Assembly: GCA_001273385.1 (NCBI GenBank)
Contig: LFWW01000002.1
Location: forward strand, 1-64,000
Direction: 5' to 3'
Length of the DNA stretch: 64,000 nucleotides
Source of the DNA: a miscellaneous Crenarchaeota group-6 archaeon AD8-1
GTDB taxonomy: Archaea; Thermoproteota; Bathyarchaeia; Bathyarchaeales; Bathycorpusculaceae
The notes beneath the pieces were generated by a model. The model searched no databases, was not told the DNA's origin, and saw nothing but the letters and a program-made list of their open reading frames with translations. The position numbers were made by a program, and so were the translations under genes. This document shows positions 17,401 through 41,006 of this stretch, piece after piece (the stretch's first letter is position 1; each line of letters begins with the position of its first letter).

Positions 17401-19802
17401 GCTCAAATCTCATTATTCAAAATAAACCTAATAGCAAATTGTATGAAATTGATTTAGTGAAAGCTTCAAATAAAGAACTAGTTAAGATTAGCACCAACTT
17501 TTCTTTAGGCTTAAATCTTAGAGAAATGAAGACTGTTCAAAAATATTTTCAAAAGCAACAACGATATCCAACTTATTTAGAACTGGAAACAATAGCTCAG
17601 ACTTGGTCTGAACATTGCTTCCATAAAACCTTCAAAGGAACTATAAAAATAAATAATAAAGAAATCAAAAGTCTTCTAAAAACCTACATATCCAAAGTCA
17701 CAAAAGAAATTAATCCTGATTGGTGTGTTTCAGTTTTTGAGGATAATGCTGGAATAGTAAATTTCAACAAAGAATATGGAATTGCAGCAAAAGTGGAAAC
17801 TCATAACCATCCTTCTGCTGTGGAGCCCTTTGGAGGAGCAGCCACCGGAGTAGGTGGTGTAATTAGAGATGTGCTAGGAGTATGGGCAGATCCAATTGCA
17901 TGCACTGATGTTTTAGGATTTGGACCCTTAAATTTTGATTACAGAAAGCTTCCGTTAGGTGTTAAACATCCCAAATATGTTTATATGGGCGTCACAGCGG
18001 GAATAAGCGCCTATGGTAATAATATGGGTATACCAACAGTAAATGGAGCTATATACTTTGATGAAAGCTATACTGGGAATGTTATAGTATACTGTGGTTG
18101 TTTGGGTTTAGTACCACTCAGCAAATTTCGAAAAAACGCTAAACCAAACGACATAATTCTCTTAGTAGGAGGAAAAACAGGTCGTGACGGAATTCATGGA
18201 GTAACTTTTGCTTCAACTGAATTAACAGAGGAATCTGAAGTTATTTCTCGACCAGCAGTTCAAATTGCAGATCCGATTCAAGAAGAGAAAGTAAAGAGAG
18301 CAATAATTGAGGTTAGAGATCGTGAACTTGCTTCAGCTATAACTGATCTTGGTGGTGGAGGCTTATCATCAGCTATAGGTGAAACAGCTGAGAGATACAA
18401 TTGTGGGGCAGTTGTAGAATTGCAAAAAGTTCCTCTAAAAAATAAAGATTTAGCTCCATGGGAAATATACATTTCCGAATCCCAAGAAAGAATGTTATTA
18501 ATTATTCCACCTGAAAATTTAGAAAAAACACTTGAGATATTTTCAAAAGAGGATGTTGATGCCACAGCAATAGGAAAACTTATTTCAAAACGAATTTTAA
18601 AATTGATCTTTGGAACTGAAGTAGTAGCAAACCTTGATATGTCATTTATTTTTTCTCCACCTCTCAGCCAAAAAAAAGCTATACATAAGAAAAGAAAATT
18701 CATCGAACCAATTCTTAAGGAGCCGGAAAATCTAAATGAAGAAATCATGCAAATTCTATCAGCACCAAATATAGCTAGTAAAGAAAGCATAATCCGCACA
18801 TATGATCATGAAGTAAAAGGAAACACAACATTAAAACCATTACAAGGAAAATACAGCGGTCCAAATGATGCAGCAGTAATAAAGCCTTTACAAAAATCGT
18901 GGAAAGGCATAGTAATTTCTTGTGGAATGAATCCAAAATATGGCAAAATCGAAACATATTGGATGGCGGCATCATCTATTGATGAAGCAATAAGAAATAA
19001 TATTGCGGTTGGAGGAAGAAGAATAGCTTTGCTGGATAATTTCACATGGGGGAATCCAGAAAAACAAGAAAGGTTAGGATCCCTGGTAAAAGCATGTGAA
19101 GCCTGCTATGATATTGCATTAGCGTTCAAAACACCTTTTATTTCTGGAAAAGATAGTTTATACAATGAATCACCATTAGGATCAGTAACACCCACTCTTC
19201 TAATTTCAGCAGTAGGAATAATCCCTGATATAAGAAAAACTGTTTCAATGGAAATAAAAAATCCTCAAAATATGCTATATATTATAGGCAAAACCTATGA
19301 TGAACTCGGAGGATCAGAGTACTACTCGAGCAAGGGATTTCTTGGAAAAAATGTTCCAAAAGTGAGACCCAAACAAGCTATAAACAATTTTAATGCCATA
19401 ACTAAAGCTATTGACTCAAATCTTATTGAATCATGTCACGATATTTCTGAGGGAGGAATAGCTGTATCTGCAGCTGAAATGGCATTTTCAGGAGGTCATG
19501 GTATCAAAATAGATCTATTAAAAATTCCTAATGAAAGAATTGACAGAAATGACACTTTATTATTTTCTGAATCAAACAGCAGATTTCTAATCGAAGTAAA
19601 TAAAAAATCCAAAAATAAGCTTGAAAAACTTCTAAAAGGAACAGTATTTTCAGAAATTGGTGAGATTACAGAAAAACCAAATTTTTCAGTTAATGGATTA
19701 AATGGAAAAACAGTTATTGATATGGAAATTCGAAATTTACGGAAAAGTTGGATTGGAACATTCAATAGAGAGGTGAAAAAAAATAAAACGCGAAGAAATT
19801 AG
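17397..19802 (+). CDS. purL: FGAM synthase large subunit PurL
   Basis: 801 residues, the small-form PurL of archaea and Bacillus. It catalyses ATP-dependent conversion of FGAR to FGAM with ammonia delivered by PurQ. Recognisable blocks include SEHCFHKTFKG near 80, KVETHNHPSAVEPFGGAA near 130, GDGxH-like GRDGIHGVTFAS near 265 and DLGGGGLSSAIGE near 318. It shares its start with the purS stop, and its 3' end overlaps the predicted purQ start by 20 bases. Confidence 0.93.
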   Translation: MSSNLIIQNKPNSKLYEIDLVKASNKELVKISTNFSLGLNLREMKTVQKYFQKQQRYPTYLELETIAQTWSEHCFHKTFKGTIKINNKEIKSLLKTYISKVTKEINPDWCVSVFEDNAGIVNFNKEYGIAAKVETHNHPSAVEPFGGAATGVGGVIRDVLGVWADPIACTDVLGFGPLNFDYRKLPLGVKHPKYVYMGVTAGISAYGNNMGIPTVNGAIYFDESYTGNVIVYCGCLGLVPLSKFRKNAKPNDIILLVGGKTGRDGIHGVTFASTELTEESEVISRPAVQIADPIQEEKVKRAIIEVRDRELASAITDLGGGGLSSAIGETAERYNCGAVVELQKVPLKNKDLAPWEIYISESQERMLLIIPPENLEKTLEIFSKEDVDATAIGKLISKRILKLIFGTEVVANLDMSFIFSPPLSQKKAIHKKRKFIEPILKEPENLNEEIMQILSAPNIASKESIIRTYDHEVKGNTTLKPLQGKYSGPNDAAVIKPLQKSWKGIVISCGMNPKYGKIETYWMAASSIDEAIRNNIAVGGRRIALLDNFTWGNPEKQERLGSLVKACEACYDIALAFKTPFISGKDSLYNESPLGSVTPTLLISAVGIIPDIRKTVSMEIKNPQNMLYIIGKTYDELGGSEYYSSKGFLGKNVPKVRPKQAINNFNAITKAIDSNLIESCHDISEGGIAVSAAEMAFSGGHGIKIDLLKIPNERIDRNDTLLFSESNSRFLIEVNKKSKNKLEKLLKGTVFSEIGEITEKPNFSVNGLNGKTVIDMEIRNLRKSWIGTFNREVKKNKTRRN

Positions 19803-20592
19803 TGTTTGTATTCTGCGAGTAGGTGGAACAAATTGCGATTTAGAAACACAACGCGCATTTCAAGAGTTAGGGGCACAAGCCAAGATTCTGCATGTGAATG
19901 AATTAATTAAAAATAGAAATCTAATGGACTTTCAAATTCTAGTAATTCCAGGAGGATTTTCATTTGGAGATTATGTACGAGCTGGTGTAATATTAGCAAG
20001 ATTATTATCAGCAAAACTTGATAAAGAGATAAGAGATTTCGTTGAAGATAACAGAGCAATTCTTGGTATATGTAATGGTTTTCAAGTTCTTGTGGAATAT
20101 GGACTTTTGCCAGGTTTTGAAGGAATCTCAGAATACCCAGAGGCGACTCTCACAACAAATATTCCCCAAGGTTACAATTGCCGTTGGATCCACATAAAAC
20201 AAGAAAATAAAAATAAATGCAAGTTTACGAACAATATTCAATTTGGCAAGATATTGAATCTCCCAATTGCTCATTCGGAAGGAAGATTTCTTTTTCCAAA
20301 AGAGAAAGAAGAACAACTAATTGAAAAACTATATGAAAATGACATGATAGTCCTTAGATATTGTGACGAAAAGGGTGAGTTAGCTGAAAAAGAATATCCT
20401 ATAAACCCAAATGGATCACTTGAAGATATAGCAGGCATATGTAATAAAGAGGGAAATATATTTGGATTGATGCCTCATCCCGAAAGAGCATTTTATTGGT
20501 GGCAAAAACCGAATTGGACTAAAAATAAACAAATTTCAGAATATGGTGATGGTAAACTAATCTTTGAAAATATCATTGACAATCTAATCTAA
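19783..20592 (+). CDS. purQ: FGAM synthase glutaminase subunit PurQ, predicted to start at ATA
   Basis: Glutamine amidotransferase class I that supplies ammonia to PurL. The nucleophile block GICNGFQVLVEYG and the His/Glu block MPHPERAF are present. The first canonical start (GTG 19894) would remove the conserved N-terminal strand and loop VCILRVGGTNCDLETQ. In this frame nothing upstream is ATG, GTG or TTG before a TGA at 19774. GAGGTGA at 19770-19776 lies six bases before ATA at 19783, giving a 269-residue product beginning KREEISVCILRVGG after the initiator, as PurQ proteins normally do. The 3' end overlaps the convergent pfkB-family gene by nine bases. Product is sure, start codon inferred. 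Confidence 0.85.
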   Translation: MKREEISVCILRVGGTNCDLETQRAFQELGAQAKILHVNELIKNRNLMDFQILVIPGGFSFGDYVRAGVILARLLSAKLDKEIRDFVEDNRAILGICNGFQVLVEYGLLPGFEGISEYPEATLTTNIPQGYNCRWIHIKQENKNKCKFTNNIQFGKILNLPIAHSEGRFLFPKEKEEQLIEKLYENDMIVLRYCDEKGELAEKEYPINPNGSLEDIAGICNKEGNIFGLMPHPERAFYWWQKPNWTKNKQISEYGDGKLIFENIIDNLI

Positions 20593-21498
20593 AAAATCTA
20601 AATCTTTAAGGTAAGGAAGACCAGCCCGAGCTCCAAACTTTGTAATTTTTCTTGAAGCAACAAAATTCCCGATTCTTGCACAATCAAAAAGGCTTTCTTC
20701 ATTAAGTAGTCCTGTAATAAATCCGGCGCAAAAAGCATCCCCTGCACCTGTGGTATCAACAACTTCTGCATCAAAAGATTTAACCAAATAATTTTCAGCA
20801 CCATTTGTCACATAACTACCAGCAGAACCTAGCTTCACAGCCACTATTTCAATTCCTTTTTGAATCAAAAATTTAGCTCCTCTGCGGTAATTGGCTTTGC
20901 CAGTCAATAGTTTAAGCTCAATTGCGTTAGGTATTAAAACATTAGTCTTGTTTAGTAAAGGTTCTAGTGCGGTATAGCCCTTATTGGCATACAGCATCCC
21001 TGGATCAAGAGTAATTTTTGTTGATTTAGAAACGATTGGTAATAATTTTTTTTGAGTTTCAAATGATATTTCTCCAACAAAAGAGGATAAATGTAAATAT
21101 TTTGTTTTACACGCATAGTCATGATCAATTTCATCATAAGTTATTGTATCATTAACACCTGGATCTACATATAGTGCTCGTTGACCCTTTTTATCCACAA
21201 AACCAAAAACTGATCCTGTTTTTCCTTGAACTGCTTGAACAATACCCTTAGTGTCAACTCCTTCTATGCAAAAATCTTGCAGAATAACTTTACTTTCTCT
21301 ATCAGAACCAATCTTACCTACAAATCCTACTTTGCAACCTAGCCGTGCTAATCCAACAATTGTGTTAGCTGCAGATCCTCCACAAGTTTCAACGTAAGAT
21401 CCAATGAAACTCTCTTCTTCAGCACTAGCAAGTTTATTCACTTTAAAGAGTTTATCAATATTAAGAGCACCAAATCCTACAACATCGAATTGATTCAT
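20584..21498 (-). CDS. PfkB-family sugar/nucleoside kinase
   Basis: 304 residues of the ribokinase-like fold. The substrate-side GGSAANTIVGLARLG near 40 and the C-terminal DTTGAGDAFCAGF near 248-260, which includes the catalytic Asp and anion hole, are intact. The family includes ribokinase, archaeal nucleoside kinase and ATP-dependent phosphofructokinase; sequence alone does not choose. The start overlaps the ftr stop by four bases (ATGA) at the end of an operon that begins with purF and purD, so a nucleoside or ribose-related substrate is plausible. Confidence 0.85.
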   Translation of the reverse strand: MNQFDVVGFGALNIDKLFKVNKLASAEEESFIGSYVETCGGSAANTIVGLARLGCKVGFVGKIGSDRESKVILQDFCIEGVDTKGIVQAVQGKTGSVFGFVDKKGQRALYVDPGVNDTITYDEIDHDYACKTKYLHLSSFVGEISFETQKKLLPIVSKSTKITLDPGMLYANKGYTALEPLLNKTNVLIPNAIELKLLTGKANYRRGAKFLIQKGIEIVAVKLGSAGSYVTNGAENYLVKSFDAEVVDTTGAGDAFCAGFITGLLNEESLFDCARIGNFVASRKITKFGARAGLPYLKDLDFLD

Positions 21499-22406
21499 GA
21501 AAATAACTCAACCAATTTAATTTTATATTCTCCCAATTTCCCACCATAATTACCAGCTGAAATTCCACTCACACCATCAATTTCCAAAGCTGCTTCGATT
21601 CCTCTCTTCATAGCATCTTTTACTGACTCCATTGAAACCCCATTTATCACAATCTCTGGAATATATTTCACTTTATTAGGAACTCTCGATAATGACCCTA
21701 ATTTTTTCTTGAGCGAAAAACAATATGGATGATTAGTAGTAGGACCTATTAGAGGAAAACGTGTTTCAGGTTTTGAGCCAGCAGAACAAACATCAAAAGG
21801 AGTAATAACCCCTTTCGTTTTATGTATAACTTTAAGAATCTTTTTCCCAACCTGATTGACAGCTTCTTTTGTTTCGCACATAATCCAAAAGTTAGCGCCC
21901 ATTATGCCCCGTGCAAAACCTAAATAACGCTCAATAATAAAATCTGGAACCATAAGTGGCACAATGATTATCTCTTTGCCAAGTCGATTTTCGATCCACT
22001 CGAAACCATCCCCACAATGCCCAATCCTCAACATCATATCCATTTTTCCCTCAGCTTGATCCAGAGCATTGAAAACTGCAGTAAATGGTTTAACTAAAAT
22101 GTCTTGACGAATTCTATAAGAAAGCTCAGTTTCAAATCTTTGTACAGATTCCTCAAAGGTTTTCCCAGATCGAATTGCTCCCCAAAATTGTAAAACTGCA
22201 CCTTTCCGTTTATCAGGAGTCTCAAGCTCATGTAACCATTTCTCAACACCGCCTTCAATTCTACCTATAACAACTGAAGGGGTTGAGGTAGAGTCTTCTG
22301 CTGCTTTCTTTAAAATAACCTCATCATCTGCTGTAATAATAACACGAGAATATATTCCTTCAAAAGCTTCTGCATAAGTGTTATCAACCCTATTTATATC
22401 AATCAT
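21495..22406 (-). CDS. ftr: Formylmethanofuran:tetrahydromethanopterin formyltransferase
   Basis: 303 residues, close to the usual size. Ftr moves the formyl group between methanofuran and H4MPT in the archaeal methyl branch. Family blocks are TYAEAFEGIYSRVIITA at the N-terminus, RGIMGANFWIM near 165, PTTNHPYCFSL near 225 and EIVINGVSMESVKDAMKRG with GISAGNYGGKLGEYKI at the end. It is locked between a HAD gene (abutting) and a PfkB gene (four-base overlap), in an operon led by purine genes. No other formylmethanofuran genes are in the window. The enzyme is cytoplasmic. Confidence 0.9.
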   Translation of the reverse strand: MIDINRVDNTYAEAFEGIYSRVIITADDEVILKKAAEDSTSTPSVVIGRIEGGVEKWLHELETPDKRKGAVLQFWGAIRSGKTFEESVQRFETELSYRIRQDILVKPFTAVFNALDQAEGKMDMMLRIGHCGDGFEWIENRLGKEIIIVPLMVPDFIIERYLGFARGIMGANFWIMCETKEAVNQVGKKILKVIHKTKGVITPFDVCSAGSKPETRFPLIGPTTNHPYCFSLKKKLGSLSRVPNKVKYIPEIVINGVSMESVKDAMKRGIEAALEIDGVSGISAGNYGGKLGEYKIKLVELFS

Positions 22407-23489
22407 TTAACCAAGGCTTCCTATAGCTTCCCCTCTTAGAGATCTTCTAAATCTATTACTTTCTTCAATTAACAAATTAGTATTTTTAGATGTTAAAATT
22501 TTTACTATAGGTAGGTCTTCTTTATATTTGTTCAAAAAAAGAGACAGAAGATCATCATTTAAATCAACTTTATTCAGAGTTTTTATGCTCCAATCCTTTA
22601 ATAATCTAATAGTGGTTTTTGTTCCATAATTACAAAACAGATTATTGATTATAGCAATAACCAGATTACTATTTGACAAAACAGCTACATCAGCATTTTT
22701 TACTGCATAGCTATTACCATTAAAGGACACAGTTAGCCCTCCACTTTTCTTTACAAGATTGAAAGCTTCTAAATCTGTTATACTATCCCCAAAATATATG
22801 ACATTATTAATTGAATTATTCAATTTTCTTGCAACATCTTTAATCGCTTCACCTTTCTGATATCCCCCAATAGGAATAACATCAGAAAAAAATCTTGATA
22901 TATCCGAATTTGAGATTTCTTGCCAGAAAATACTATCAAGTCTTTTGATAACATTTTGGGATTCTTTTGAAAAATCATCCAAGCTTTTTGCTTTTGAGGG
23001 AATTATTATTTGAGGTAGCTCTGATAATTCATTTGCTATTTTTCTTAAACCCTTCTTCTCTTTATCAGTAATTGAATATTTATCAATGGATAAATTAGTA
23101 CAGTATGTATTTTCAAAAGGGAAATCTAAAGATTCACACAGTACCTTTATGTACTGTTCATAACTCGTACTGACAATAAATGCATTAGAAGTTTTTCTTA
23201 TATATTCAAGAGAAACTTTGCTGTCTGTTATTAAAAATAAGTTATCAGATGAATATTTTTCGATATCTCTTTCAGTTACATCAAAAGCTTTTAGAAATGG
23301 AACAATTAATTTAAGAGTGCTTCCAGCATCATAACCAGGTATTTTTAAAATATCTGCTCGTACATCATCATATTTACTTATAATAGTAAACAGTTTGTCG
23401 CCTTGAGGAATAAAATTTTTTGTAACTTCAAAAGCATTATCATTCTTAGATATTGGACCTTCACAATCAGAGACAAATAATCGTCTCAT
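22407..23489 (-). CDS. Archaeal HAD-superfamily hydrolase (COG4030/EhaR-like)
   Basis: 360 residues. It opens with FVSDCEGPISKNDNAFE, the N-terminal Asp motif of an archaeal HAD group sometimes annotated as EhaR in methanogens, and has YFGDSITDLEAF near 233, the second acidic HAD motif. Thus it should be a Mg-dependent phosphatase, but the substrate is not known. No Eha hydrogenase genes are present. Its start overlaps the purD stop by four bases and its stop abuts the ftr start, so it is translated together with purine and C1 genes. Confidence 0.7.
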   Translation of the reverse strand: MRRLFVSDCEGPISKNDNAFEVTKNFIPQGDKLFTIISKYDDVRADILKIPGYDAGSTLKLIVPFLKAFDVTERDIEKYSSDNLFLITDSKVSLEYIRKTSNAFIVSTSYEQYIKVLCESLDFPFENTYCTNLSIDKYSITDKEKKGLRKIANELSELPQIIIPSKAKSLDDFSKESQNVIKRLDSIFWQEISNSDISRFFSDVIPIGGYQKGEAIKDVARKLNNSINNVIYFGDSITDLEAFNLVKKSGGLTVSFNGNSYAVKNADVAVLSNSNLVIAIINNLFCNYGTKTTIRLLKDWSIKTLNKVDLNDDLLSLFLNKYKEDLPIVKILTSKNTNLLIEESNRFRRSLRGEAIGSLG

Positions 23490-24901
23490 GCATTGCTCCT
23501 CAAAAGATTCATTCTATCTATGCTTTTTTGTATATGTTCTTTTGATGCAATATCAATTCTATTCCATAGCGCGCCTCCATTTATCGCATTAATACCCTCA
23601 AGAGAGATTTGTCTAGCTTCCTCAATAGTATTTCCTATCCCCAAAACTGCTACTGCTCTGGATCTTAGAGCAAAAATCTCTGAATCTCTAATCTCCATTG
23701 ATCCAGGATAGACACGAATTCGATTATGATTTTTTTCCATTAATGAGTTTACCTTCGATAAATCAATTGGGCCATTAATAGTTTTTTTATTTACAAGTTC
23801 TGGAAAAGTTTTTATGTATCCACCATAATTTGGTGGAACTTTATAAGTTAAAACAGAGGCAGCTTTCTTAAATCTTATATTTTTTAAGGTTTGATTTATC
23901 ATTCCAAAACAAATGTCAACAAAATCATCTTTTATTAGTGGTAAAATATTCATTATTTCTGGATCTCCAGGTCTGCTATTATTCTCTAAAATTTTAATTC
24001 CATGTTTTGAATGCATAAAGGCTAGATATAAGGGAACACCTCTAAGAGCGGAGTTGTCCCCTATTTTTTCTTTCCATTTATTAAAAATCCTGCATGCCAA
24101 TGAAATTTCATTATCTCTGTCCTTAGAAGTTAAAAAAGGCAAGTGGTCCGAAATATCTTTGTAAGAACCCATCCCTCCAGTATTAGGACCTTTATCACCA
24201 TTAAAAGCGCGTTTATAGTCACGCACACTAGGAAGAGGAATTATGTGTTTCCCGTCTGAAAAGATTTGAAAGCTTGATTCTTCACCATCTATTTTTTCCT
24301 CTATGAGAACAGATCCATATTGGAAATTTGATAAGAAGTGATCGAAGAGCTGTTCCCGAGTGAAAAAATGATCACCCCATACACCAACACCTTTACCAGC
24401 AGTAGGTTTGTCTGGTTTTACTACTGCTTGATTATCAAGTTGATCAAGCCAACTATAAACATCTTTCTTCACCGCTTCTTTATTCATGTAATCTTTTGGA
24501 TTAAAGATCATAAACCGTGGATTTGATTCAGGAGCAAATTCTTTAAATAACATTCTTTGTTCGATTTTGCTCCCTTCTATTGCATTATCTTTTGTAGGAG
24601 AAAGTACTGGAATATTTGTTCTTTGTTCGATAAGATCACGCAAACCCTCAATTATCGGCTTCTCTGGACCAACAAAAACAAAATCCAATTCGTTTTCATT
24701 TGTTTTAGCAAATTTACAAATATCTTTGCTATTTAGATCAGGAATAATCGCATGTTTGAAAGCTAGTTTTTCATTAAACGGATTTCGTTGCCGATCTGCG
24801 ATGTATAACTTCACAAGATAATTCTCACTTCTCTTAAGAGCATCTATTATGGCCGATTCTCTTGAGCCATATGAAACTACTAATATTCCTACTTTTTCCA
24901 T
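23486..24901 (-). CDS. purD: Phosphoribosylamine-glycine ligase PurD
   Basis: 471 residues with an ATP-grasp fold. Joins phosphoribosylamine with glycine in the second step of purine synthesis. Visible blocks are DFVFVGPEKPIIEGLRDL, VVKPDKPTAGKGVGVW (ATP loop), GPNTGGMGSYKD and LENNSRPGDPEIMNILPL. It is slightly longer than the bacterial enzyme, as is common in archaea. It lies 73 bases after purF on the same strand, and its stop overlaps the next gene. Confidence 0.92.
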   Translation of the reverse strand: MEKVGILVVSYGSRESAIIDALKRSENYLVKLYIADRQRNPFNEKLAFKHAIIPDLNSKDICKFAKTNENELDFVFVGPEKPIIEGLRDLIEQRTNIPVLSPTKDNAIEGSKIEQRMLFKEFAPESNPRFMIFNPKDYMNKEAVKKDVYSWLDQLDNQAVVKPDKPTAGKGVGVWGDHFFTREQLFDHFLSNFQYGSVLIEEKIDGEESSFQIFSDGKHIIPLPSVRDYKRAFNGDKGPNTGGMGSYKDISDHLPFLTSKDRDNEISLACRIFNKWKEKIGDNSALRGVPLYLAFMHSKHGIKILENNSRPGDPEIMNILPLIKDDFVDICFGMINQTLKNIRFKKAASVLTYKVPPNYGGYIKTFPELVNKKTINGPIDLSKVNSLMEKNHNRIRVYPGSMEIRDSEIFALRSRAVAVLGIGNTIEEARQISLEGINAINGGALWNRIDIASKEHIQKSIDRMNLLRSNA

Positions 24902-24974
24902 TTATTTCACATCATTGAAAGTTTAGGATAAGTTTTTGAGATTAATTTTTTAGGTTTAGCTTTTAAAGTCCCTT

Positions 24975-26456
24975 TTAAAGTCCATTATCTTCAATCTCAT
25001 ATATTCTGTTTTTCTCTTCATATCCTGATAAGAATTTATATTTCATATAATCGGCTAGTTTTTGAGCCTTTGGGGTAGGGTATTCCCCAGTTATACAAGC
25101 TAAACATAAGTCCTTGTGATCGTGTCCTGTAGCACTGACTAAACCAGCTATTGACTGATAACAAACTGCATCGGCTCCTATTATTTTTGCTATTTCTAAT
25201 GGTGAGTGTGTTGAACCAATAAGCTGGGCATAAGTAGCCATATCAATTCCATAAAAACAAGGCCCTATTATTCGAGGAAAAGTAACATACATGTAAATTT
25301 TTTTTACTCCATATTTTCGTAGTTTACTGATTATTACTTTAGTTGTATCTCCTCGAACTATACTATCTTCCGTTAATATTATTTTTTTTCCACTCATTTT
25401 TGAGCCTAAAATATTTATTTTCCTATCTATAGTTGAGGAACGCTCTTTATCGAGAAGAATAAACGCTCTGTCTGTAACATATCTGTGTCTGCGTGATGCA
25501 CGCTCCCATTTGATTTTCGATTCTTCATGTACTCCCATCGCTGGGTCATCGGCTGTTTCGGGAACTGATAAAATTAGATCCGCATCAGTCGCTATTTCTG
25601 GAAATTCTTTAACTAAATTTCTTCCAAATTGTTCTCGAATCTCATAAACAAATTTATTATTAAATATTGAATCGGGTCTGGCAAAATAAGCATATTCAAA
25701 TGCACAAAAAGCTTTTTTTGGATTGTCTATGAGTTGTTCTCTATTAAATCCATTCTTTGTGACTGTAACAAGTTCACCAGGTTCAAGCTCAAAAGCTCTA
25801 GTAAAACCATTTATATCAAAACTTACTGTTTCAGATGAGAAAGAGTAAATGGATTCATCTGAATTGTGGCCAGCGCATAAAGGTTTTATCCCATGTTGAT
25901 CCTTGAATGCAAAAAAATCGTTATTTCCAGTTATTCCAATAACAGAAAAAGCTCCATCTAAATTTATCATACAACTCTTTATTGCAGAAGATAATGATTT
26001 TCCTTTATAAAGTTCGAGAAGCAATTTATAGCAGACTATATCTGAGTCACAAGTGTAATTAAATTCTGGAAAAAAAGTTTTAACTTCTTCTCTCAGCTCT
26101 AATGTATTTACGATATTACCATTAAAAGATAAGGCAACTTTCAAATCATCAATAGAACCCATGATTGGTTGTGTTCCCTTTAAAAGTGATTTATCATCAC
26201 ATTTTCCTGAAGTAGTATACCGAACATTACCTATACCCATATAACCTGGAAGTTGACCGAACCATTTTTGAAGGGCATTTGAATTTAATTTTGGAATTAA
26301 ATCAAGATTTTTATAAAGATGAAAATTTTTTCCATTATAAGTTAAAAATCCATGAGATTGATGACCGCGATGGTTTTCAGCACGTAAACCCCAATATAAA
26401 TAGGGAAAAACAGGTTTTTTATTAAAATCAATAGCACCGAAAACTCCGCAGCCGAT
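24975..26456 (-). CDS. purF: Amidophosphoribosyltransferase PurF, predicted to start at ATC
   Basis: Catalyses the first committed step of purine synthesis: PRPP plus glutamine to phosphoribosylamine. The N-terminal nucleophile block CGVFGAID and WGLRAENHRGHQSHG are encoded upstream of the first in-frame ATG (26240), so that ATG cannot be the start. The frame is closed by TAG at 26469-26471 and contains no ATG, GTG or TTG before the Cys. AGGAGGG (26464-26470) lies seven bases before ATC at 26454-26456, which would put the nucleophile at residue 3. The PRPP loop is TEDSIVRGDTT, and LCLACITGEYPT resembles the iron-sulfur region of Bacillus-type PurF. The length (493) is normal. An ATG at 26459-26461 exists but is in another frame. 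Confidence 0.87.
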   Translation of the reverse strand: MGCGVFGAIDFNKKPVFPYLYWGLRAENHRGHQSHGFLTYNGKNFHLYKNLDLIPKLNSNALQKWFGQLPGYMGIGNVRYTTSGKCDDKSLLKGTQPIMGSIDDLKVALSFNGNIVNTLELREEVKTFFPEFNYTCDSDIVCYKLLLELYKGKSLSSAIKSCMINLDGAFSVIGITGNNDFFAFKDQHGIKPLCAGHNSDESIYSFSSETVSFDINGFTRAFELEPGELVTVTKNGFNREQLIDNPKKAFCAFEYAYFARPDSIFNNKFVYEIREQFGRNLVKEFPEIATDADLILSVPETADDPAMGVHEESKIKWERASRRHRYVTDRAFILLDKERSSTIDRKINILGSKMSGKKIILTEDSIVRGDTTKVIISKLRKYGVKKIYMYVTFPRIIGPCFYGIDMATYAQLIGSTHSPLEIAKIIGADAVCYQSIAGLVSATGHDHKDLCLACITGEYPTPKAQKLADYMKYKFLSGYEEKNRIYEIEDNGL

Positions 26457-26645
26457 ATCATTTCCCTCCTAGCTAGATGAAAATGATAGAAGAAAAAGGG
26501 CTTTATCAATTTTTAGCACATCTTTGGATAAAAACCATGAAAGAATATTTGAACAATAGGGTAATTTCTTGATTTTTAATGGAATATTTTAACCATTTTT
26601 CATAAGTTTTGATAGATCGAATAGCTACAACCAAAAAAATTTTAT

Positions 26646-27818
26646 CTAATTTTTTGTGATCAAAGATTTTGCTAATTCTTCTGCCTTATCTGTTTGTTCC
26701 CATGTGAAATCAGGATCATTTCTTCCAAAATGACCAAAAACAGCTGTTTTTCTATATATTGGTCTTAATAGATTTAATTTTTCAATAATTGCTTTGGGTC
26801 GCATATCAAAATTTTTCTTGACTAGATTTAAAATTGCACTATCTGAAATTTTGCCAGTTCCAAAAGTGTTAACAAAAATAGATACTGGATGAGCTACTCC
26901 AATTGCATAAGATAATTGAACCTCACATTGATCAGCTAACCCAGCTGCTACAATATTTTTTGCAATGTATCGAGCCATATAACAAGCTGACCTATCCACT
27001 TTTGATGGGTCTTTTCCAGAAAAACAACCTCCACCATGGCTTCCAACCCCTCCATAAGTATCGACTATTATTTTTCTCCCTGTTAGTCCTGAATCAGCCA
27101 ATGTTCCTCCAATTACAAAACGTCCAGTACCATTGACAATATACTTTGTTTCAGTATCTAATTTGTTTGAAGGAATAACTTTCTTTATTACATGTTCAAT
27201 AATGTCTCTTTCTACTTTTTTCTCTTTAACGTTCTCATTATGTTGAGCAGCAATCACCACAGTAGTTACTCTCTGTGGAACTCCATCCAAGTATTCCACA
27301 GTAACTTGAGATTTACAGTCTGGTCTTAAATATGGAAGAATACCATTTTTTCTAACCTCTGCGAGCTTTTCCACGAGTTTATGAGATAAAATTATTGGAA
27401 GGGGCATTAATTCCTTAGTCTCGGTTGTTGCATATCCAAACATCATTCCTTGATCACCAGCACCTTGTTCACGATCTTTAGTTTCAGTTACCCCTATTGA
27501 GATATCAGGAGATTGCTCTTCAATCGAAACCATTATACCACATGTTTCCCAATCTAATCCATCTTTTGCATTGTCAAATCCAATTTCCTTAAGTGTTTTT
27601 CTTACTATTGCAGGAATAGAAACATAGCAAGAAGTTGTGATTTGGCCCGTGATTATTAAATTTCCTTGCATAACTAAGGTTTCACAATCAACACGTGCCT
27701 TAGGATCTTTTGCTAGAATTGCATCTAAAATACTATCTGAAATTTGATCAGAAACTTTATCTGGATGCCCTTCACCAACAGATTCAGAAGTGAACAAGTA
27801 TCTTCCTTTTTTTTGCAT
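26646..27818 (-). CDS. metK: S-adenosylmethionine synthetase, bacterial type (MetK)
   Basis: 390 residues with the bacterial MetK signature [20 protein letters not shown] at the N-terminus, [12 protein letters not shown] near 120 and [19 protein letters not shown] near 260. Makes SAM from methionine and ATP. Most archaea use a distinct, strongly diverged enzyme (the archaeal MAT family), so this copy points to acquisition from bacteria. Its codon use looks like its neighbours', so any transfer is not recent. It is divergent from the DUF4443 gene. SAM is needed by the radical SAM proteins in this window. Confidence 0.93.
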
Positions 27819-27980
27819 AAAATCACTTATCCGATTACAGTAAGAATTTAAGAATTTGGGATTTTTCTTAAAAGGTTTTCTGATATTTTAAAAATATTTC
27901 TCCCTTGGGATGATACATAAGCATTTAGATCATAAATTATATAATCGATCAAAGCAAATAAAACTGTAAGGGCACCAACC

Positions 27981-28604
27981 ATGGTTTTGAATGTTAAGAA
28001 GATAATTAAAGAAATCGTGCATGAAAAGGCGCCTGGACCCCCTACTTCATTTTCTGTATTTCATGTTTTTTTTGCTTTGGAATTAATTTCAGAGGAATTA
28101 ATTGGACGTAAAAGATTATCGAAAAAATTAGACTTAGGAGAAGGAGTTGTTCGAACAATAATCAATCATCTTAAAGAAGCAAAACTGATTACAACTTCAA
28201 GAAAGGGATGTAAATTCACAAATAAAGGAAAGAAGCTTTGGGGAAAATTAGAACAAATTTTCCCGACTAGAGTTGAAGTTGAAAGAACAGTACTTAACAA
28301 TTCAAACTATAATTTTGCATTCTTGATTAAGAATAGCGGGCATAAAATCAAATCCGGCATAGTTCAAAGAGACGCAGCGATTATGGGTGGTGCCAAACGC
28401 TCCATAGCTATTGTATCAAAAGGCAACAAATTAGCAATTGAATCAGTAAGTGATGATATAAAAAGAGATTTTCCATATGCAATAAAGAAACTCCTAAGAA
28501 AAATTTCTCCAGAAAATAATGATGTAATAATAGTTGCTGGTGCTGAATCAAGGATTAAAGCAAAACGTGGTGCATTTGCTGCAAGCTGGATTCTAATTGA
28601 TTAA
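27981..28604 (+). CDS. DUF4443 winged-helix protein, putative archaeal regulator
   Basis: 207 residues. Residues 20-85 form a winged helix (RKRLSKKLDLGEGVVRTIINHLKEA...). The remaining part contains RDAAIMGGAKRSIAIVSKG and ends with AKRGAFAASWIL, as in archaeal DUF4443 proteins. The N-terminal half should bind DNA; the effector, if any, is unknown. A strong hairpin with a T run follows the stop codon. It is divergent from metK. Confidence 0.7.
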   Translation: MVLNVKKIIKEIVHEKAPGPPTSFSVFHVFFALELISEELIGRKRLSKKLDLGEGVVRTIINHLKEAKLITTSRKGCKFTNKGKKLWGKLEQIFPTRVEVERTVLNNSNYNFAFLIKNSGHKIKSGIVQRDAAIMGGAKRSIAIVSKGNKLAIESVSDDIKRDFPYAIKKLLRKISPENNDVIIVAGAESRIKAKRGAFAASWILID

Positions 28605-28611
28605 AAGAGTG

Positions 28612-28651
28612 AAAAATTAACCAGTGTACTAATATCTACTGGTTAATTTTT
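28612..28651 (+). terminator. Hairpin with T run after the DUF4443 gene
   Basis: A perfect 14-base inverted repeat (AAAAATTAACCAGT at 28612-28625 and its complement at 28638-28651) around a 12-base loop, running into TTTTTTT. It begins seven bases after the stop codon. The right arm supplies the U tract expected for archaeal termination. Confidence 0.65.
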
Positions 28652-29113
28652 TTATAAAAAAATAATTTTATATATAAAACCTAGTTTTATCGACATAAAA
28701 ATATAATCAAATTGCCACTTATCTGGCTTAAAACTGTCAACGCTTTTAATTGCTAAATACACTACTGAATCAAAGCAATTGTGGATCAATTTGACAATAT
28801 TACTATTATTAGACCAAATTACTATCGGTTTTGGTATAGTTGTTGTAATTGAAGAAGAAATTTGTTATCTTTAAATCAACTGAAATAGTTCCAGAAAGGG
28901 ATCTAATCTCTTTATATTTAGCTTCTGAAATTTTCATAATTTTTTATGATTTTAAATAATTGGATCTCTTCTTTATTATTTTTATTTTTAAATCCATTTT
29001 TAATTATGCGCCAATAAATTTTCTAGATTTTCTTATTAAAAATGAAGGAAAATGATCGTCTATTTATCTTGAAAGTATATCATGATTTAGCTGTTTTACT
29101 AAGTTCTTTTTTC
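28652..29113. other. AT-rich intergenic region without a supported gene
   Basis: About 460 bases between the terminator and the convergent protease gene. It holds short frames only, none with a start and ribosome site that persuade me. Several AT tracts (for example TTTTATATATAAAA near 28669) could be promoter-like. No repeats or RNA gene seen. Confidence 0.4.
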
Positions 29114-29947
29114 CTAATTTAAATTTTCAAGATTCTCTAATATTATATCTGAAGGAATTGCAAAACCTATTCCTTCTGAGTCAGCAATTCGTGCGGTAAC
29201 AATACCTATAACTTCACCTTTATAATTTAATAGGGGACCACCAGAGTTACCTGGATTCATAGGTGCAGTAGTCTGGATAATATTTTCAATATATTCATCG
29301 TTTATTATCAAAGTTCGATTCAAAGCACTAATTATACCTTCACTCATAGAACCTTCTAGACCATAAGGAGTTCCAACTAAAATAGCTGGGTTACCTACCT
29401 TTAAGGAACTAGAACTTATTATTGTAAGTGGAATAAACTCGCTTTCTGGAGCATCAGTATTAAGAAATGCAAGATCAACAAACGAGTTCGCATATAAAAC
29501 AGAAGCATCATAAGTTGTACCATTTACAAATGTAATGCTAGTAGAGATTGCTTCATCAATGATATGGTTACTTGTAACAATTAGAAACTTGCTATCATAT
29601 TCTAATATAAAACCTGAACCTTGCTGCTCAGTAAAATATTCCCTACCAAAAATGTTAACCTGTCTTATATTAGCCTTAACAACTACAACAGATAATCTTA
29701 TTTGATCAAATAAATCAGAAAGTAGAACTGTATCTCCAATAGGAGTAATAAAATCATTGCTCGAAATACTCTCTAATTCTTGTGATAATTCCAAAACTTG
29801 ATTTTTTAAGTTATTTATTTCATTTGAGTAAGCAAAGGAACTAACAAAATAAGCAATTACTGCTGAAAATAAACTTGCAATAATAATTGTTGTTAACAAA
29901 AATCCTTTGGTTTTAAATTTTTTATTTTCTAGAGTGGTAGATTCCAT
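29114..29947 (-). CDS. Membrane-anchored HtrA/DegP-like serine protease without PDZ domain
   Basis: 277 residues. A cytoplasmic basic N-terminus precedes one membrane helix (16-38), a short coiled linker (43-62) and a trypsin-like domain. The triad is His128 (TSNHIIDE), Asp158 (VDLAFLN) and Ser235 (NPGNSGGPLLN). The protein ends shortly after the domain, so the PDZ region that regulates DegP/DegS is absent. It should act outside the membrane in quality control or signalling. It stands alone between two intergenic regions. Confidence 0.85.
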   Translation of the reverse strand: MESTTLENKKFKTKGFLLTTIIIASLFSAVIAYFVSSFAYSNEINNLKNQVLELSQELESISSNDFITPIGDTVLLSDLFDQIRLSVVVVKANIRQVNIFGREYFTEQQGSGFILEYDSKFLIVTSNHIIDEAISTSITFVNGTTYDASVLYANSFVDLAFLNTDAPESEFIPLTIISSSSLKVGNPAILVGTPYGLEGSMSEGIISALNRTLIINDEYIENIIQTTAPMNPGNSGGPLLNYKGEVIGIVTARIADSEGIGFAIPSDIILENLENLN

Positions 29948-30176
29948 TTCTTTATTCCTTCAAAGTATCGTATATAGCAAAATGAAATTTACAATTGCAG
30001 AAGTTAACATTCCAATTTACTATCCAATGGATTTATTAAAAAAGTTGAACATTAGTATTAAGGTTTTTTCAAAATTAAACCCAAATCAGAATAATATTAA
30101 ACTTAGAAAATTAAAAAATTGAGGAAAGGTTCTAGAAAAGATCCATCAAATGACTTAGAATTAACTGATGCTCTAC

Positions 30177-30938
30177 TTAGTAAGTGTATTTATTGCCGCT
30201 TGATAATATTCTTTCCAAATAAACATTGAAATCAAGAAATCCCTCATTTGTTTTTGATGAAATTGGAATTAATTTGAATTTCAATCCTAACTGACATATA
30301 GCTTGCATCATATTTCTACTAAATAGCCTTTTTGTACCTTCCAAACAAATATCAATCGATGTTTCAAGAGAGTTTAGATCAAAAGACCAGTCAATAATTT
30401 GATCAATCTTTTCTTTATTCAGAAGATCAATTTTAGATAGCACATGAAGCTGTGGAATAAAAAATCTATTGTAAATTGCAGCTGAAAGGAACATATTAGA
30501 CACATAATTAAAGGGATTCAAAGAAAAAACGGAGTCAAAAAGATAAACTAAACCTTTAGGTCCTATAGTTAATTCATTAACGATATATGGACCACTAGCT
30601 CTAAATGCAAACAACTCCATCTGTCCAGGAGTATCTACTAATATGACATCTGCATCCATAGTTTCAATTTCTTGATTAATAGAATCCATTTCGTCAGCAA
30701 TCAAATCTGCGGAAAGAATTAATGCTCCATTTGGACCCAAACCATATTTTTCCATTATTATGCCAACATCAACATAATTTCGAATATCCACATCAGGCGA
30801 ATAAGGCAACTTTAAAGCACCTGGATCCATATTAACTACGGCTACATCTTGTTTGGAAATTTTTAGCCATTCAGCAAAAGAGCCAGTAAAAAGGGATTTT
30901 CCAGAACCAGCGGTTCCTATTATGAAAATTGTGCCCAC
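30177..30938 (-). CDS. GPN-loop GTPase
   Basis: 253 residues. Walker A GTAGSGKS at 8-15, the diagnostic Gly-Pro-Asn insertion (GLGPNGAL, 68-70), switch motif DTPGQ at 102-106 and the guanine-specificity motif SKID near 166. Archaeal GPN proteins are homodimeric GTPases related to the eukaryotic factors for RNA polymerase assembly. Start is GTG, with AAGAGG eight bases upstream. It precedes no obvious operon partner; amrS is on the same strand further upstream. Confidence 0.92.
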   Translation of the reverse strand: MGTIFIIGTAGSGKSLFTGSFAEWLKISKQDVAVVNMDPGALKLPYSPDVDIRNYVDVGIIMEKYGLGPNGALILSADLIADEMDSINQEIETMDADVILVDTPGQMELFAFRASGPYIVNELTIGPKGLVYLFDSVFSLNPFNYVSNMFLSAAIYNRFFIPQLHVLSKIDLLNKEKIDQIIDWSFDLNSLETSIDICLEGTKRLFSRNMMQAICQLGLKFKLIPISSKTNEGFLDFNVYLERILSSGNKYTY

Positions 30939-31091
30939 TACAATATCCTCTTAAAAAGAATGGTTACTAATTCTAATTAATAAATCTGCATTTATTGATA
31001 TTAAACTTTAATTGTGTAAAAAATCAATAAAAAGAATATTGAATTTGTTTAATTTTATTAATAAACTATTTCACTAAGTAATAGAAAGATA

Positions 31092-32147
31092 TCAAAATAG
31101 CGCATAAGGAAATCGCGCACCTGTTTGATGGAGATCTCCAACAATAGGTATTTTATTATTGCATACTGAACAGCGTTTATCTTTTGTAATATTCCATCTT
31201 GTTATCTCGAAACTATGTCGCTTAATTAGAAGCTCATTACATTTGGGGCAATATGTATTTTCTGCAGGATGTCCAGGAATATTGCCAATATAAACATAAT
31301 TAAGACCAGCATTTCGAGCAGTCATGTAAGCTTTTTCCATTATTTCAACACTAGTTCCTTGATTTGTAGTCATCTTATAATCTGGATGAAACCGAAGTAA
31401 GTGAAAGGGAGTATCTTTCCCTAAAATCTCCTTTATCCATGTAGCCATTTCTTTTATTCTATCACTTGAATCTCCGATCTTCGGAACCACTAAATTCGTT
31501 ATTTCTATATGGACACCGTTTCTTCTGAATTCTTTTAGTGCTTCATATATAGGTTCTACTGTTGGGACAGAAGAATAATTCTTATAGAAATCTGGATCTC
31601 CACCACCTTTAAAATCTACAGTTGCTGCATCTAATATGGGAGAGATAGTTTTTACTGCTTCAGGTGTTAGATAGCCATTTGTTACAAAAGTATTAAAGAA
31701 TCCTAATTTGTGTGCTATTTTAGCAACATCATAAGCATATTCAAAAAACACTGTAGGTTCCGTATAAGTATAGCTAATGCCATAACAATTCTTAGCTCTT
31801 GCTGTTTTAATAACTTGATCAGGAGGAAAATCTTTCCCAGGAATTGTTCTATCTTGACTTATCATCCAATTATCACAAAATTTACAACGGAAATTGCATC
31901 CTGCAGTAGCAATAGACATAACTAAAGCACCAGGATTAAAATGAGAAAGAGGCTTTTTTCCTATGGGATCAACAGCTGCAGAAACTGCTTTTCCATAAAC
32001 TAAAGAAGTTAAAACTCCATTCACATTTTTTCTAACCAAACAAAAGCCTGTGGCATCTTCATTTATTAAGCATCTACGTCCGCATAAATTACATTTAACT
32101 CGATTTTTCTCTTTTTTTTCATATAGCATAGCTTCATGAAATGCCAT
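31092..32147 (-). CDS. amrS: AmrS-type radical SAM protein (AmmeMemoRadiSam system)
   Basis: 351 residues. The radical SAM cluster motif CNFRCKFC lies at 84-91 (Cys84, 88, 91). N-terminal cysteines 19, 22, 26 and 36 and a C-terminal CPKC/CSVC pair give additional metal sites. The family (COG1180) is conserved with the AMMECR1 and MEMO proteins, which are not in the window. Substrate remains undefined in general. It is separated by 70 bases from hisI, the last gene of the histidine operon, and could be on the same transcript. Confidence 0.85.
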   Translation of the reverse strand: MAFHEAMLYEKKEKNRVKCNLCGRRCLINEDATGFCLVRKNVNGVLTSLVYGKAVSAAVDPIGKKPLSHFNPGALVMSIATAGCNFRCKFCDNWMISQDRTIPGKDFPPDQVIKTARAKNCYGISYTYTEPTVFFEYAYDVAKIAHKLGFFNTFVTNGYLTPEAVKTISPILDAATVDFKGGGDPDFYKNYSSVPTVEPIYEALKEFRRNGVHIEITNLVVPKIGDSSDRIKEMATWIKEILGKDTPFHLLRFHPDYKMTTNQGTSVEIMEKAYMTARNAGLNYVYIGNIPGHPAENTYCPKCNELLIKRHSFEITRWNITKDKRCSVCNNKIPIVGDLHQTGARFPYALF

Positions 32148-32217
32148 TATATTAACTCACAGCTTACTCTTTTCTTTTAGGTAATTATCATAAAGAAAAA
32201 CTAATTATTAAGAACAA

Positions 32218-32553
32218 TCAATTTTCACTTACTATATTATGAAAACAGGTTGATTTTTTAGTGTGACATGCGGGTCCCTTTTGAATCACCAGATATACTA
32301 TAGTATCATAATCACAATCTGTAAGTATTTTCTTTATTTTCTGGGTGTTGCCTGAGGACTCGCCTTTCATCCATAATTTTTTTCTCGAACGACTCCAATA
32401 GTGCGCATATCCTGTCTCTAATGTCTTCTTTAGAGCGGCCTTATTCACATAAGCTAACATTAGCAAGTCTTTAGATGTAAAATCCTGTACAACTACAGGA
32501 ATAAGCCCATCTCCTTTTTTGAAATCAAGTTTTTTAATTATTTCTTTATTCAA
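32218..32553 (-). CDS. hisI: Phosphoribosyl-AMP cyclohydrolase HisI
   Basis: 111 residues. Opens the adenine ring of PR-AMP in histidine synthesis. Family blocks are [33 protein letters not shown] and the metal-binding [10 protein letters not shown] with GPACHT near the end. In many organisms a HisE (PR-ATP pyrophosphatase) domain is fused or adjacent; here the protein ends right after the HisI domain and no hisE follows. It overlaps hisF by eight bases. Confidence 0.93.
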
Positions 32554-33352
32554 GTCTAATATTAACTCCGCAATTCTGTAAATATTTTTTTACAAATGGA
32601 ATTGGATAATTATTATAATGGAAAACTGAAGCAGCTAGAGCAGCATCGGCTTTGCCAATTGAAAAAACTTCAAAAAAGTGTTCAGGTTTTCCAGCGCCTC
32701 CACTTGCAATTACTGGAACTCGGACCGAATCGGATATTATCTTAGTTAAATCTATATCATATCCATCTTTAGTACCATCTTTATCCATCGAAGTTACCAG
32801 AAACTCTCCTGCTCCAAGATCAGCAGCTTGTTTTGCCCAATCTATCGCATTAATTCCTGTTGGTTTTCTTCCACCATAGGTTGTTACCTCAAACCATATT
32901 GGACCCTCATCAGTTTCTATAAAAGAGCCGGCATGATTTTCTACCACCCTTCTTTTAGCATCTATAGCAACCACAATGCATTGCTGTCCAAAAATTTTAG
33001 CAAGATCAGATATTAACTTAGGATTTTCAACAGCAGCAGTATTCACCGAGACTTTATCAGCTCCGCTACAAAGTATTATTCTAGCATCAGAAGTACTGCG
33101 AATTCCACCTCCTACAGTAAAAGGAATGTTAACTGCTTTTGCTACTCTTTCAACAACTTCTTTTAAAAGGTCTCTTCTTTCTGATGAAGCCGTAATATCA
33201 AGAAAAACTAATTCATCTGCTGCCTGATCTGAATACTTTCTAGCAAGTTCAACCGGATCCCCTGCATTTCTTAAATTTATAAAATTAATTCCTTTTACAA
33301 CTTTTCCATGATCAACATCCAAGCAAGGAATAATTCTTTTAGCCAACGGCAT
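32546..33352 (-). CDS. hisF: Imidazole glycerol phosphate synthase cyclase subunit HisF
   Basis: 268 residues, TIM barrel. With HisH makes imidazole glycerol phosphate and AICAR. The N-terminal [15 protein letters not shown] has the catalytic Asp and VVAIDAKRR has the second catalytic Asp. The insert around 143-155 ([16 protein letters not shown]) is typical. It overlaps hisI and follows hisA after six bases. Confidence 0.95.
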
Positions 33353-33358
33353 CTGATT

Positions 33359-34084
33359 CTATTTTTCTCCTAATTTCTTTAAGGCTTCTCGTAGAGTAAA
33401 CTTTCCTTCATAAAGAGCCTTCCCTATTACAACTCCATGAACACCAATTCTCTTGAGACTTATTAGATCTTCTAATTTTCCAATTCCCCCAGCTGCAATT
33501 ATATTCAAATCTAAATTGCTATTTATTTCTTCAAGTGTCCCAATATCGGGTCCAGAAAGAGTACCATCTCTAGCAATTGATGTTATAAGAAAATTATGTA
33601 TACCCATAGAGAGGAATTTATTAATGGATTCAATAATTTCCATTGATGCTTGACTCTTCCAACCTTCAATCATCACTTTTCCATTTTTATTATCCAAAGC
33701 AACTATTATAGCATCCGAACCGAATCTTTGAATTATGCGAATCAAAGCTGAAGAATCATGAAATGGTAAAGAGCCTAGTATAACTTGATCTATGTTTGAC
33801 TCAAGCAATTGTTCTACATCTCTAAAACTTCTAATGCCACCCCCAACCTGAAGTGATAGATTTACTCTTTGGGCAATTTTGCCAATAACAGAACGATTAT
33901 CTCCCAATCCTAAAGCAGCATCCAAATCAATGATATGAAGTTTCTTAGCTCCATCAGCTTGCCATTTTTTCGCGGTCTGCAAAGGATCACCAAATTTTTC
34001 ATAAATCTTAGCGGTTTTTGGATCTCCTCGCTCCAATCGAACTATTTTTCCATTCATTAAATCTATTGCAGGTATTAATTGCGT
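33359..34084 (-). CDS. hisA: ProFAR isomerase HisA, predicted to start at ACG
   Basis: TIM-barrel isomerase converting ProFAR to PRFAR. The first in-frame ATG (34057) begins at MNGKIVRL and would remove the strand LIPAIDL, which carries the catalytic Asp8 of the family. Upstream in the same frame no ATG, GTG or TTG exists before a TGA. AAAAGGTGAT at 34090-34099 overlaps the hisH stop and lies five bases before ACG at 34082-34084. Starting there gives (M)QLIPAIDLMNGKIVRL, with the Asp exactly at position 8 and a 241-residue protein, normal for HisA. The second catalytic Asp region (ITSIARDGTLSGPD) is present. Product certain, start codon inferred. Confidence 0.9.
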   Translation of the reverse strand, partial: TQLIPAIDLMNGKIVRLERGDPKTAKIYEKFGDPLQTAKKWQADGAKKLHIIDLDAALGLGDNRSVIGKIAQRVNLSLQVGGGIRSFRDVEQLLESNIDQVILGSLPFHDSSALIRIIQRFGSDAIIVALDNKNGKVMIEGWKSQASMEIIESINKFLSMGIHNFLITSIARDGTLSGPDIGTLEEINSNLDLNIIAAGGIGKLEDLISLKRIGVHGVVIGKALYEGKFTLREALKKLGEK

Positions 34085-34090
34085 TAATAA

Positions 34091-34696
34091 TCACCTTTTC
34101 ACTATTCTTGCAAAGTTTTTCAAAATCTTTAACCCAGTTTCACCAGATTTTTCAGGGTGGAATTGAGTGCCAAAAATATTTTTACTAGCTACCATTGAAG
34201 TGAATTCGGTACCATATTCCGTCTGAGTAACAATAATTTCTTTATCAATAGGAACAGGATACAGTGAGTGGACAAAATAAACAAAAGATTGATCATTTAT
34301 ATTATCCAATATTTCAATTTCTTTTATAATTTTTAAGGTGTTCCAACCCATATGTGGTACCTTTACAGATGAGGACAACCGCACATTTTTCCCTTTAAAC
34401 AAACCTAATCCATACCCAGAACCTTCATCACTTCTTTGGAAGAAAAGTTGCATGCCTAAACAAATACCAATTATAGGAATTCCTGTTAATGCTAAATTAT
34501 TAATTAATTCTTTAGCAGGTTCAAGTTTTTTGGCAGCAGCAGAAAAATTACCAACTCCTGGTAATGCAATGGCATCAAGGTTATTTGATTGATTAATAGA
34601 TTTACTGATTTTTGTCTCTAAACCTACATTTTCCAAGGCATTTTTTAAACTGAAAAGATTTCCAACTCCGTAATCAAAAATAAATATTCTTGGCAT
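34091..34696 (-). CDS. hisH: Imidazole glycerol phosphate synthase glutaminase subunit HisH
   Basis: 201 residues, class I glutamine amidotransferase. Nucleophile block GICLGMQLFFQRSDEG, oxyanion region near LPGVGNF, and the His-Glu block FGTQFHPEKSGE. Its start overlaps the hisB stop by one base, and its stop region contains the predicted ribosome site of hisA. Confidence 0.95.
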   Translation of the reverse strand: MPRIFIFDYGVGNLFSLKNALENVGLETKISKSINQSNNLDAIALPGVGNFSAAAKKLEPAKELINNLALTGIPIIGICLGMQLFFQRSDEGSGYGLGLFKGKNVRLSSSVKVPHMGWNTLKIIKEIEILDNINDQSFVYFVHSLYPVPIDKEIIVTQTEYGTEFTSMVASKNIFGTQFHPEKSGETGLKILKNFARIVKR

Positions 34697-40732: not shown

Positions 40733-40829
40733 AGCGGGGTGGGGCAGCCAGGATTAACCCGCTGGGCTCATAAGAGCTCGTATGCTCAGAGATACCCAGA
40801 GATCAGTAGTTCAAATCTACTCCCCGCTA
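40733..40829 (+). tRNA. Initiator tRNA-Met(CAT) with a 21-base intron
   Basis: Acceptor AGCGGGG pairs with CCCCGCT, with discriminator A and an A-T first pair. The anticodon stem CTGGG/CCCAG supplies three consecutive G-C pairs next to the loop CTCATAA, an initiator hallmark. Between A37 (40772) and A38 (40794) lie 21 extra bases (40773-40793), the standard archaeal intron position. T arm is AGTAG-TTCAAAT-CTACT. CCA is not encoded. Mature length is 76 bases. The intron must be cut by the tRNA splicing endonuclease through a bulge-helix-bulge. Confidence 0.92.
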
Positions 40830-41006
40830 CTAAATTTTCAAAAATGTAAGCAAAGATAAGTTTGAATATATTTTAACAAAAAATCAATATTACATTATTT
40901 TTTAGTTTAGCAGAAATTAAAAAATTTTTATAAAAAATAACGTATCGGGCAATATTTAAAAATAAAAAATAGGAAAGAAAAACGAAACCAATTTTCAGGA
41001 AATATT

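Follow-up and report, generated by a model that had tools for sequence, protein, structure and literature searches.

Near-cognate start codons under strong Shine–Dalgarno sequences as a probable lineage trait of a Bathyarchaeia family

Comparison with relatives indicates that the purQ, purF and hisA genes of the archaeon AD8-1 very probably start at ATA, ATC and ACG, respectively, through a strong Shine–Dalgarno (SD) sequence and the ordinary CAU initiator tRNA, and that such starts are a trait of its lineage, a family of Bathyarchaeia. The three genes lie in the window analyzed here, 64,000 nt comprising positions 1 to 64000 of a contig from a draft genome that totals 1.58 Mb over 83 contigs (G000). 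Matches of its purF in GTDB place G000 in the Bathyarchaeia. Relatives were sought in three more genomes of the genus (G001–G003, of which G003, isolate CSMAG_2318, is the sister of G000) and in about 57 genomes of the family, Candidatus Bathycorpusculum being among the relatives. All genomes are drafts, and nearly all are metagenome assemblies. We define ATG, GTG and TTG as canonical starts and any other codon at the start column as near-cognate; the evidence for near-cognate starts is comparative throughout.

Start regions of purQ, purF and hisA

The proposed genes and their upstream elements, read from the sequence, are as follows.

19770–19776, + strand: SD sequence GAGGTGA of purQ, a 7-nt match to AGGAGGTGATC, spacing 9
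19783–20592, + strand: purQ as proposed from ATA (19783–19785), overlapping the 3′ end of purL (stop 19800–19802)
24975–26456, − strand: purF as proposed from ATC (26456–26454), two codons 5′ of the catalytic Cys codon TGC; placed also from relatives
26465–26470, − strand: SD sequence AGGAGG of purF, spacing 8
26501–26510, − strand: TATA-like ATTGATAAAG upstream of purF, similar in relatives
33359–34084, − strand: hisA as proposed from ACG (34084–34082); placed also from relatives
34090–34096, − strand: SD sequence AGGTGAT of hisA, sharing bases with the stop codon of hisH, spacing 9

Between the upstream stop and the conserved N-terminus, none of the three frames contains an in-frame ATG, GTG or TTG. 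The purQ frame opens after TGA (19774–19776) and continues AAA AAA ATA(19783) AAA CGC GAA; purF reads TAG GAG GGA AAT GAT ATC GGC TGC, the last codon being that of the catalytic Cys; and hisA reads TGA TTA TTA ACG CAA TTA ATA CCT. Reading on, the earliest canonical codon of purQ is the GTG at 19894, and the earliest ATG in frame lies at 26240 in purF, where a start would cut off about 70 residues, and at 34057 in hisA. The ORF list starts the genes correspondingly late, by 37 (purQ), about 72 (purF) and 9 (hisA) codons, just as an earlier note on this DNA had predicted of standard gene callers. Its proposal of near-cognate starts at normal SD spacing is borne out by the lack of canonical alternatives and the spacings of 8 to 9 nt, and profiles of the PurQ, PurF and HisA families match from the proposed N-termini. 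That the downstream canonical codons are nevertheless the true starts, the conserved upstream residues reflecting something else, is hardly credible. Both hisA and a NusA-like gene described below do have an ATG 7 to 9 codons downstream, as this would need, but such starts would cost HisA and NusA conserved N-terminal residues and PurF its catalytic Cys, would leave the SD at the wrong spacing, and would not explain why relatives carry ATG exactly at the near-cognate column.

The codon at these columns, one base away from the canonical starts of orthologs, turns over between species. For purQ it is ATA in G000, ATC in G001 (which lacks the run of A residues), and ATG (17) or GTG (11) in 28 other loci. 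For hisA it is ACG in G000, ATA in G001 and G003, ATG in G002, TTG in G012 (a single-contig genome from another genus of the family), and ATG, TTG or GTG elsewhere in the family. Since most of the family has canonical starts in purQ and hisA, the near-cognates there are derived.

The purF gene was tallied apart from the others because the automated start-column search picked an internal Met. Its start column is ATA in G001, G003 and most of the family. Among 44 distinct family loci, 23 are devoid of canonical codons over the 14 codons that precede the catalytic Cys, and in these the codon two before the Cys is ATA (21 loci), ATC (one) or ACG (one). One such locus (L088) reads TAA ATA GGC TGT, and three (L073, L075 and L189) read AAA ATA GGC TGC directly after a stop; with stops zero or one codon before ATA, almost only ATA is possible as the start. 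Another locus (L193) has ATG at the near-cognate position (ATG GGC TGC). Sixteen of the other loci carry ATG eight codons before the Cys, and in purF genes with this upstream ATG the Ile codon at the near-cognate position lies inside the gene (ATG GGA GAG CAA TTA AAA ATC GCG TGC). This arrangement suggests that an older N-terminus read ATG ... AAA ATH GCN TGC and that the Ile codon within it became the start after loss of the upstream ATG, an order of events that we infer. The TATA-like ATTGATAAAG similarly suggests that purF is transcribed with its own short SD leader.

These comparisons bear on two further explanations. The first is that sequencing or assembly errors, whether substitutions or indels in homopolymers like the purQ A8, erased normal starts. 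The genomes are indeed draft metagenome assemblies, and a single indel would yield a canonical start in purQ, where the A8 run follows an out-of-frame GTG, and in purF, which has an out-of-frame ATG. We nonetheless consider it highly improbable: independent assemblies, aligned without gaps, carry other near-cognates at the same columns of purF and purQ, and of NusA in at least seven genomes, and errors would not favor ATA, ATT and ATC under a conserved SD. A one-base indel as the general cause, giving GTG in purQ and ATG in purF, is rejected by gap-free alignment with G001 and G003. The earlier note had likewise argued against random error, and the codons of other species at the same columns (ATA, ATG or TTG in hisA; ATC, ATG or GTG in purQ; ATA, ATC, ACG or ATG in purF) agree with it.

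The second explanation is that these starts arose by recent hypomorphic mutation or are signs of gene decay, which the canonical state of purQ and hisA in most of the family would allow. It is very unlikely: the frames are intact and conserved (purF is 78% identical to its G003 counterpart over 492 residues), and the start is near-cognate in many genera for purF and in several for NusA. The earlier note had offered two readings, relaxed start-codon choice and recent point mutations that lower expression. The former is supported by recurrence of the pattern in other genes of this genome, among its sister species and throughout the family; the latter does not fit purF, where ATA or ATC is common in many genera, and fits hisA poorly, given ATA in two sisters and ACG here. 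The near-cognate codons may still affect expression.

Extent in the genome and the family

As the earlier note had advised, further cases were sought genome-wide, and they were found. We compared 1.16 Mb of G000 with 0.80 Mb of G012 by reciprocal best hits. The start column is canonical in both genomes, within 3 codons, in 337 of 392 ortholog pairs. A stricter test was confined to 127 G000 genes whose G012 ortholog has an SD-supported canonical start; 97 are canonical at the exact column, and 13 lack any canonical codon over the stretch that begins at the upstream stop and ends 3 codons beyond the expected column. At the column these 13 carry ATT (five genes), ATA, ACG and TTA, with an adjacent ATA in most of the others. 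ATA, ATT or ATC occupies 6 of the 13 expected start columns, compared with a background of 9.7% (p=0.0008). In the reverse test, of G012 genes against G000 canonical starts, 3 of 85 lack a canonical codon, and the difference between the genomes is not significant (p=0.11).

The G000 cases with ATT encode a NusA-like KH protein, an HD-domain protein, a ParA-like ATPase, a SAM hydroxide adenosyltransferase (SAM_HAT) and an asparagine-synthase-like protein; those with ATA encode LPG-synthase TM, OB_ChsH2, ArgZ-like, L22e-like and phosphopantetheine adenylyltransferase-like proteins. The start is ATT or CTG in a hydantoinase-like gene and, in both G000 and G012, ATC in a Snf7-like gene. Three single cases (L267, L291 and L113-3683) are weak and perhaps wrong. 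The phenomenon is thus not confined to purine and amino-acid synthesis, since the NusA, L22e-like, phosphopantetheine adenylyltransferase-like and Snf7-like genes are also affected.

NusA is the cleanest case across the family because most copies are 75 to 94% identical. Its start codon is ATT in G000 and G002, and in G003, where a TTG lies just 5′; GTA in G056 and ACG in G042, each directly after a stop, with ACG probably also in G004; ATC in G049 and G058; GTG in G016; and ATG in the rest of the family. A conserved GGAGG or GGAGG-like sequence precedes these starts. In hisH the start is ATT in G031, G006 and G010 and TTT in G026, with stops directly before ATT and TTT, and in hisF the start column is GCG in G016. 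A manual count that omitted ambiguous copies gave about 17 near-cognates in 254 family gene copies (about 7%) of hisA, hisH, hisF, purQ, hisI, nusA, L30e, hisB and PfkB; none fell among the counted family copies of hisI, hisB, L30e or PfkB. Nearly all codon changes are at the third base, the exceptions being mainly ACG, GCG and CTG.

Outside the family, NusA in Thermoproteota family f8 lacks a canonical start, and its column reads ATA (twice), GTT and TTT (L334, L335, L345 and L349), from few genomes. In one of these (L345), uS7 reads GAG ACG TCC GAG immediately 3′ of a stop, and the closeness of the stop makes ACG its probable start. L30e in family f14 has ATC at the start column. Any rate outside the Bathyarchaeia family rests on a small denominator.

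Shine–Dalgarno sequences, the initiation machinery and known systems

An SD of at least 5 nt precedes 13 of 17 near-cognate starts, compared with 72 of 299 canonical starts, although the SD itself guided the choice of some of the 17, and some are weak cases. We infer that the near-cognate codons initiate translation with insertion of Met and that the SD compensates for the weak codon. A strong SD about 6 to 10 nt upstream would keep the small ribosomal subunit in place at the start, where the CAU initiator tRNA would be accepted despite one unpaired codon base, usually the third. Under such an SD, ATG, GTG and TTG could drift to ATA, ATT or ATC, to GTA or GTT, to TTA or TTT, or to ACG, and back. 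For bacterial IF3, first- and second-base mismatches at the start codon are not tolerated and some third-base mismatches are (PMC10158994); the third-base bias of the near-cognates is as pairing would predict.

Near-cognates might instead function only by reinitiation after upstream termination, with no general SD-led initiation. The hisA, purQ, NusA and SAM_HAT starts and several others do lie close to an upstream stop, at about 20 nt or less. This restriction is unlikely, though, as purF lies 189 nt away, the HD-domain and ParA-like genes start more than 600 nt from the nearest same-strand upstream ORF found, and near-cognate starts at least 80 nt away (purF and others) do not directly follow a stop. 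Termination–reinitiation is described for archaeal operons (PMC10666635); several near-cognate genes resemble these in overlapping or abutting an upstream gene, and purF and others differ in being uncoupled.

The initiator tRNA gene lies in the window.

40733–40830, + strand: initiator tRNA-Met with a CAU anticodon and a predicted 21-nt intron (ARAGORN with introns; Rfam tRNA, 44.9 bits)

This tRNA carries A1-U72, its anticodon stem contains three G-C pairs, and each genome of the genus has a single copy of the gene. The gene was not picked up by the default whole-window Rfam scan, ARAGORN without introns gives an odd anticodon, and because of the intron the pattern GGGCTCATAACCC fails to match. 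An altered initiator tRNA, by anticodon change or as a variant extra copy, is ruled out by the CAU anticodon and the single copy. Loss of aIF1 is ruled out, since 38 of the 41 genomes of the family, G000 and G003 among them, encode it (SUI1 domain). With a normal initiator tRNA and aIF1 present, neither accounts for the tolerance of start codons. In other archaea, aIF1 is reported to destabilize non-AUG initiation complexes (PMC6237735, PMC8211752), which, given aIF1 here, counts against initiation at near-cognates as we propose it. RNA editing was also considered: C-to-U could repair ACG and A-to-I could repair AUA, and neither repairs AUU or AUC.

In bacteria, infC and pcnB start at AUU, as exceptions limited to one or two genes in each genome. 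The starts described here share with these a natural, conserved AUH near-cognate under an SD, and purF, like infC, is conserved over many genera; unlike in the bacterial examples, many unrelated genes are involved and the codons vary between species. A review of archaeal initiation names only AUG, GUG and UUG (PMC7531240). Its SD-led initiation with standard initiator tRNA and factors matches what we find, whereas ATA, ATT, ATC, ACG, GTA, GTT, TTA and TTT at the start column fall outside its list. In a survey of 36 prokaryote groups, two AUG-to-CUG switches and one AUG-to-AUU switch were recorded among 61,358 AUG starts (Belinky 2017, PMC5622118). There, as here, related genomes differ in the start codon they use, and some groups conserve the SD region more strongly where the start is weak; the share of about 7% in the present family is in contrast to its counts. 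Because that survey relied on annotated starts, such cases may be missed. Our literature search returned no report of such starts in archaea, including recurrent near-cognates in Bathyarchaeia.

Archaeal starts are assumed, also by gene callers, to be AUG, GUG or UUG. If several percent of SD-led genes start elsewhere, many database proteins from a large and abundant uncultured lineage are truncated, PurF without its catalytic cysteine being an example. We lean, by a little, toward the broader view that near-cognate starts are routine for several percent of SD-led genes in Bathyarchaeia and probably also in other Thermoproteota families, the SD defining the start and the third base being nearly free, a looser rule than described for archaea; conserved near-cognates such as the purF ATA might then serve as a control point. 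If true, these archaea would offer a natural system for studying how the initiation factors of archaea, which resemble those of eukaryotes, determine the stringency of start-codon choice.

Other features of the purF and purQ loci

Between the purF SD and ATC lies the out-of-frame ATG mentioned above (26461–26459, − strand), which opens a frame of about 39 codons and is absent in the sister species; in G000 it is a point against initiation at the ATC. The purF gene of G001 (G001:C222:9925-11499; L004 and L006) matches as two pieces within one open frame, as if about 30 codons had been inserted in frame near residue 388.

The end of purL lies within purQ over the A8 run (19771–19802). With one A fewer, purL and purQ would form a single frame, so slippage at A8 could give a fused PurL–PurQ. 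G002 carries a broken purQ remnant with 5′ and 3′ pieces (G002:C101:12423-12663), which shares its contig with a remnant of purF; a complete, more distant second purQ lies at G002:C40:2789-3589.
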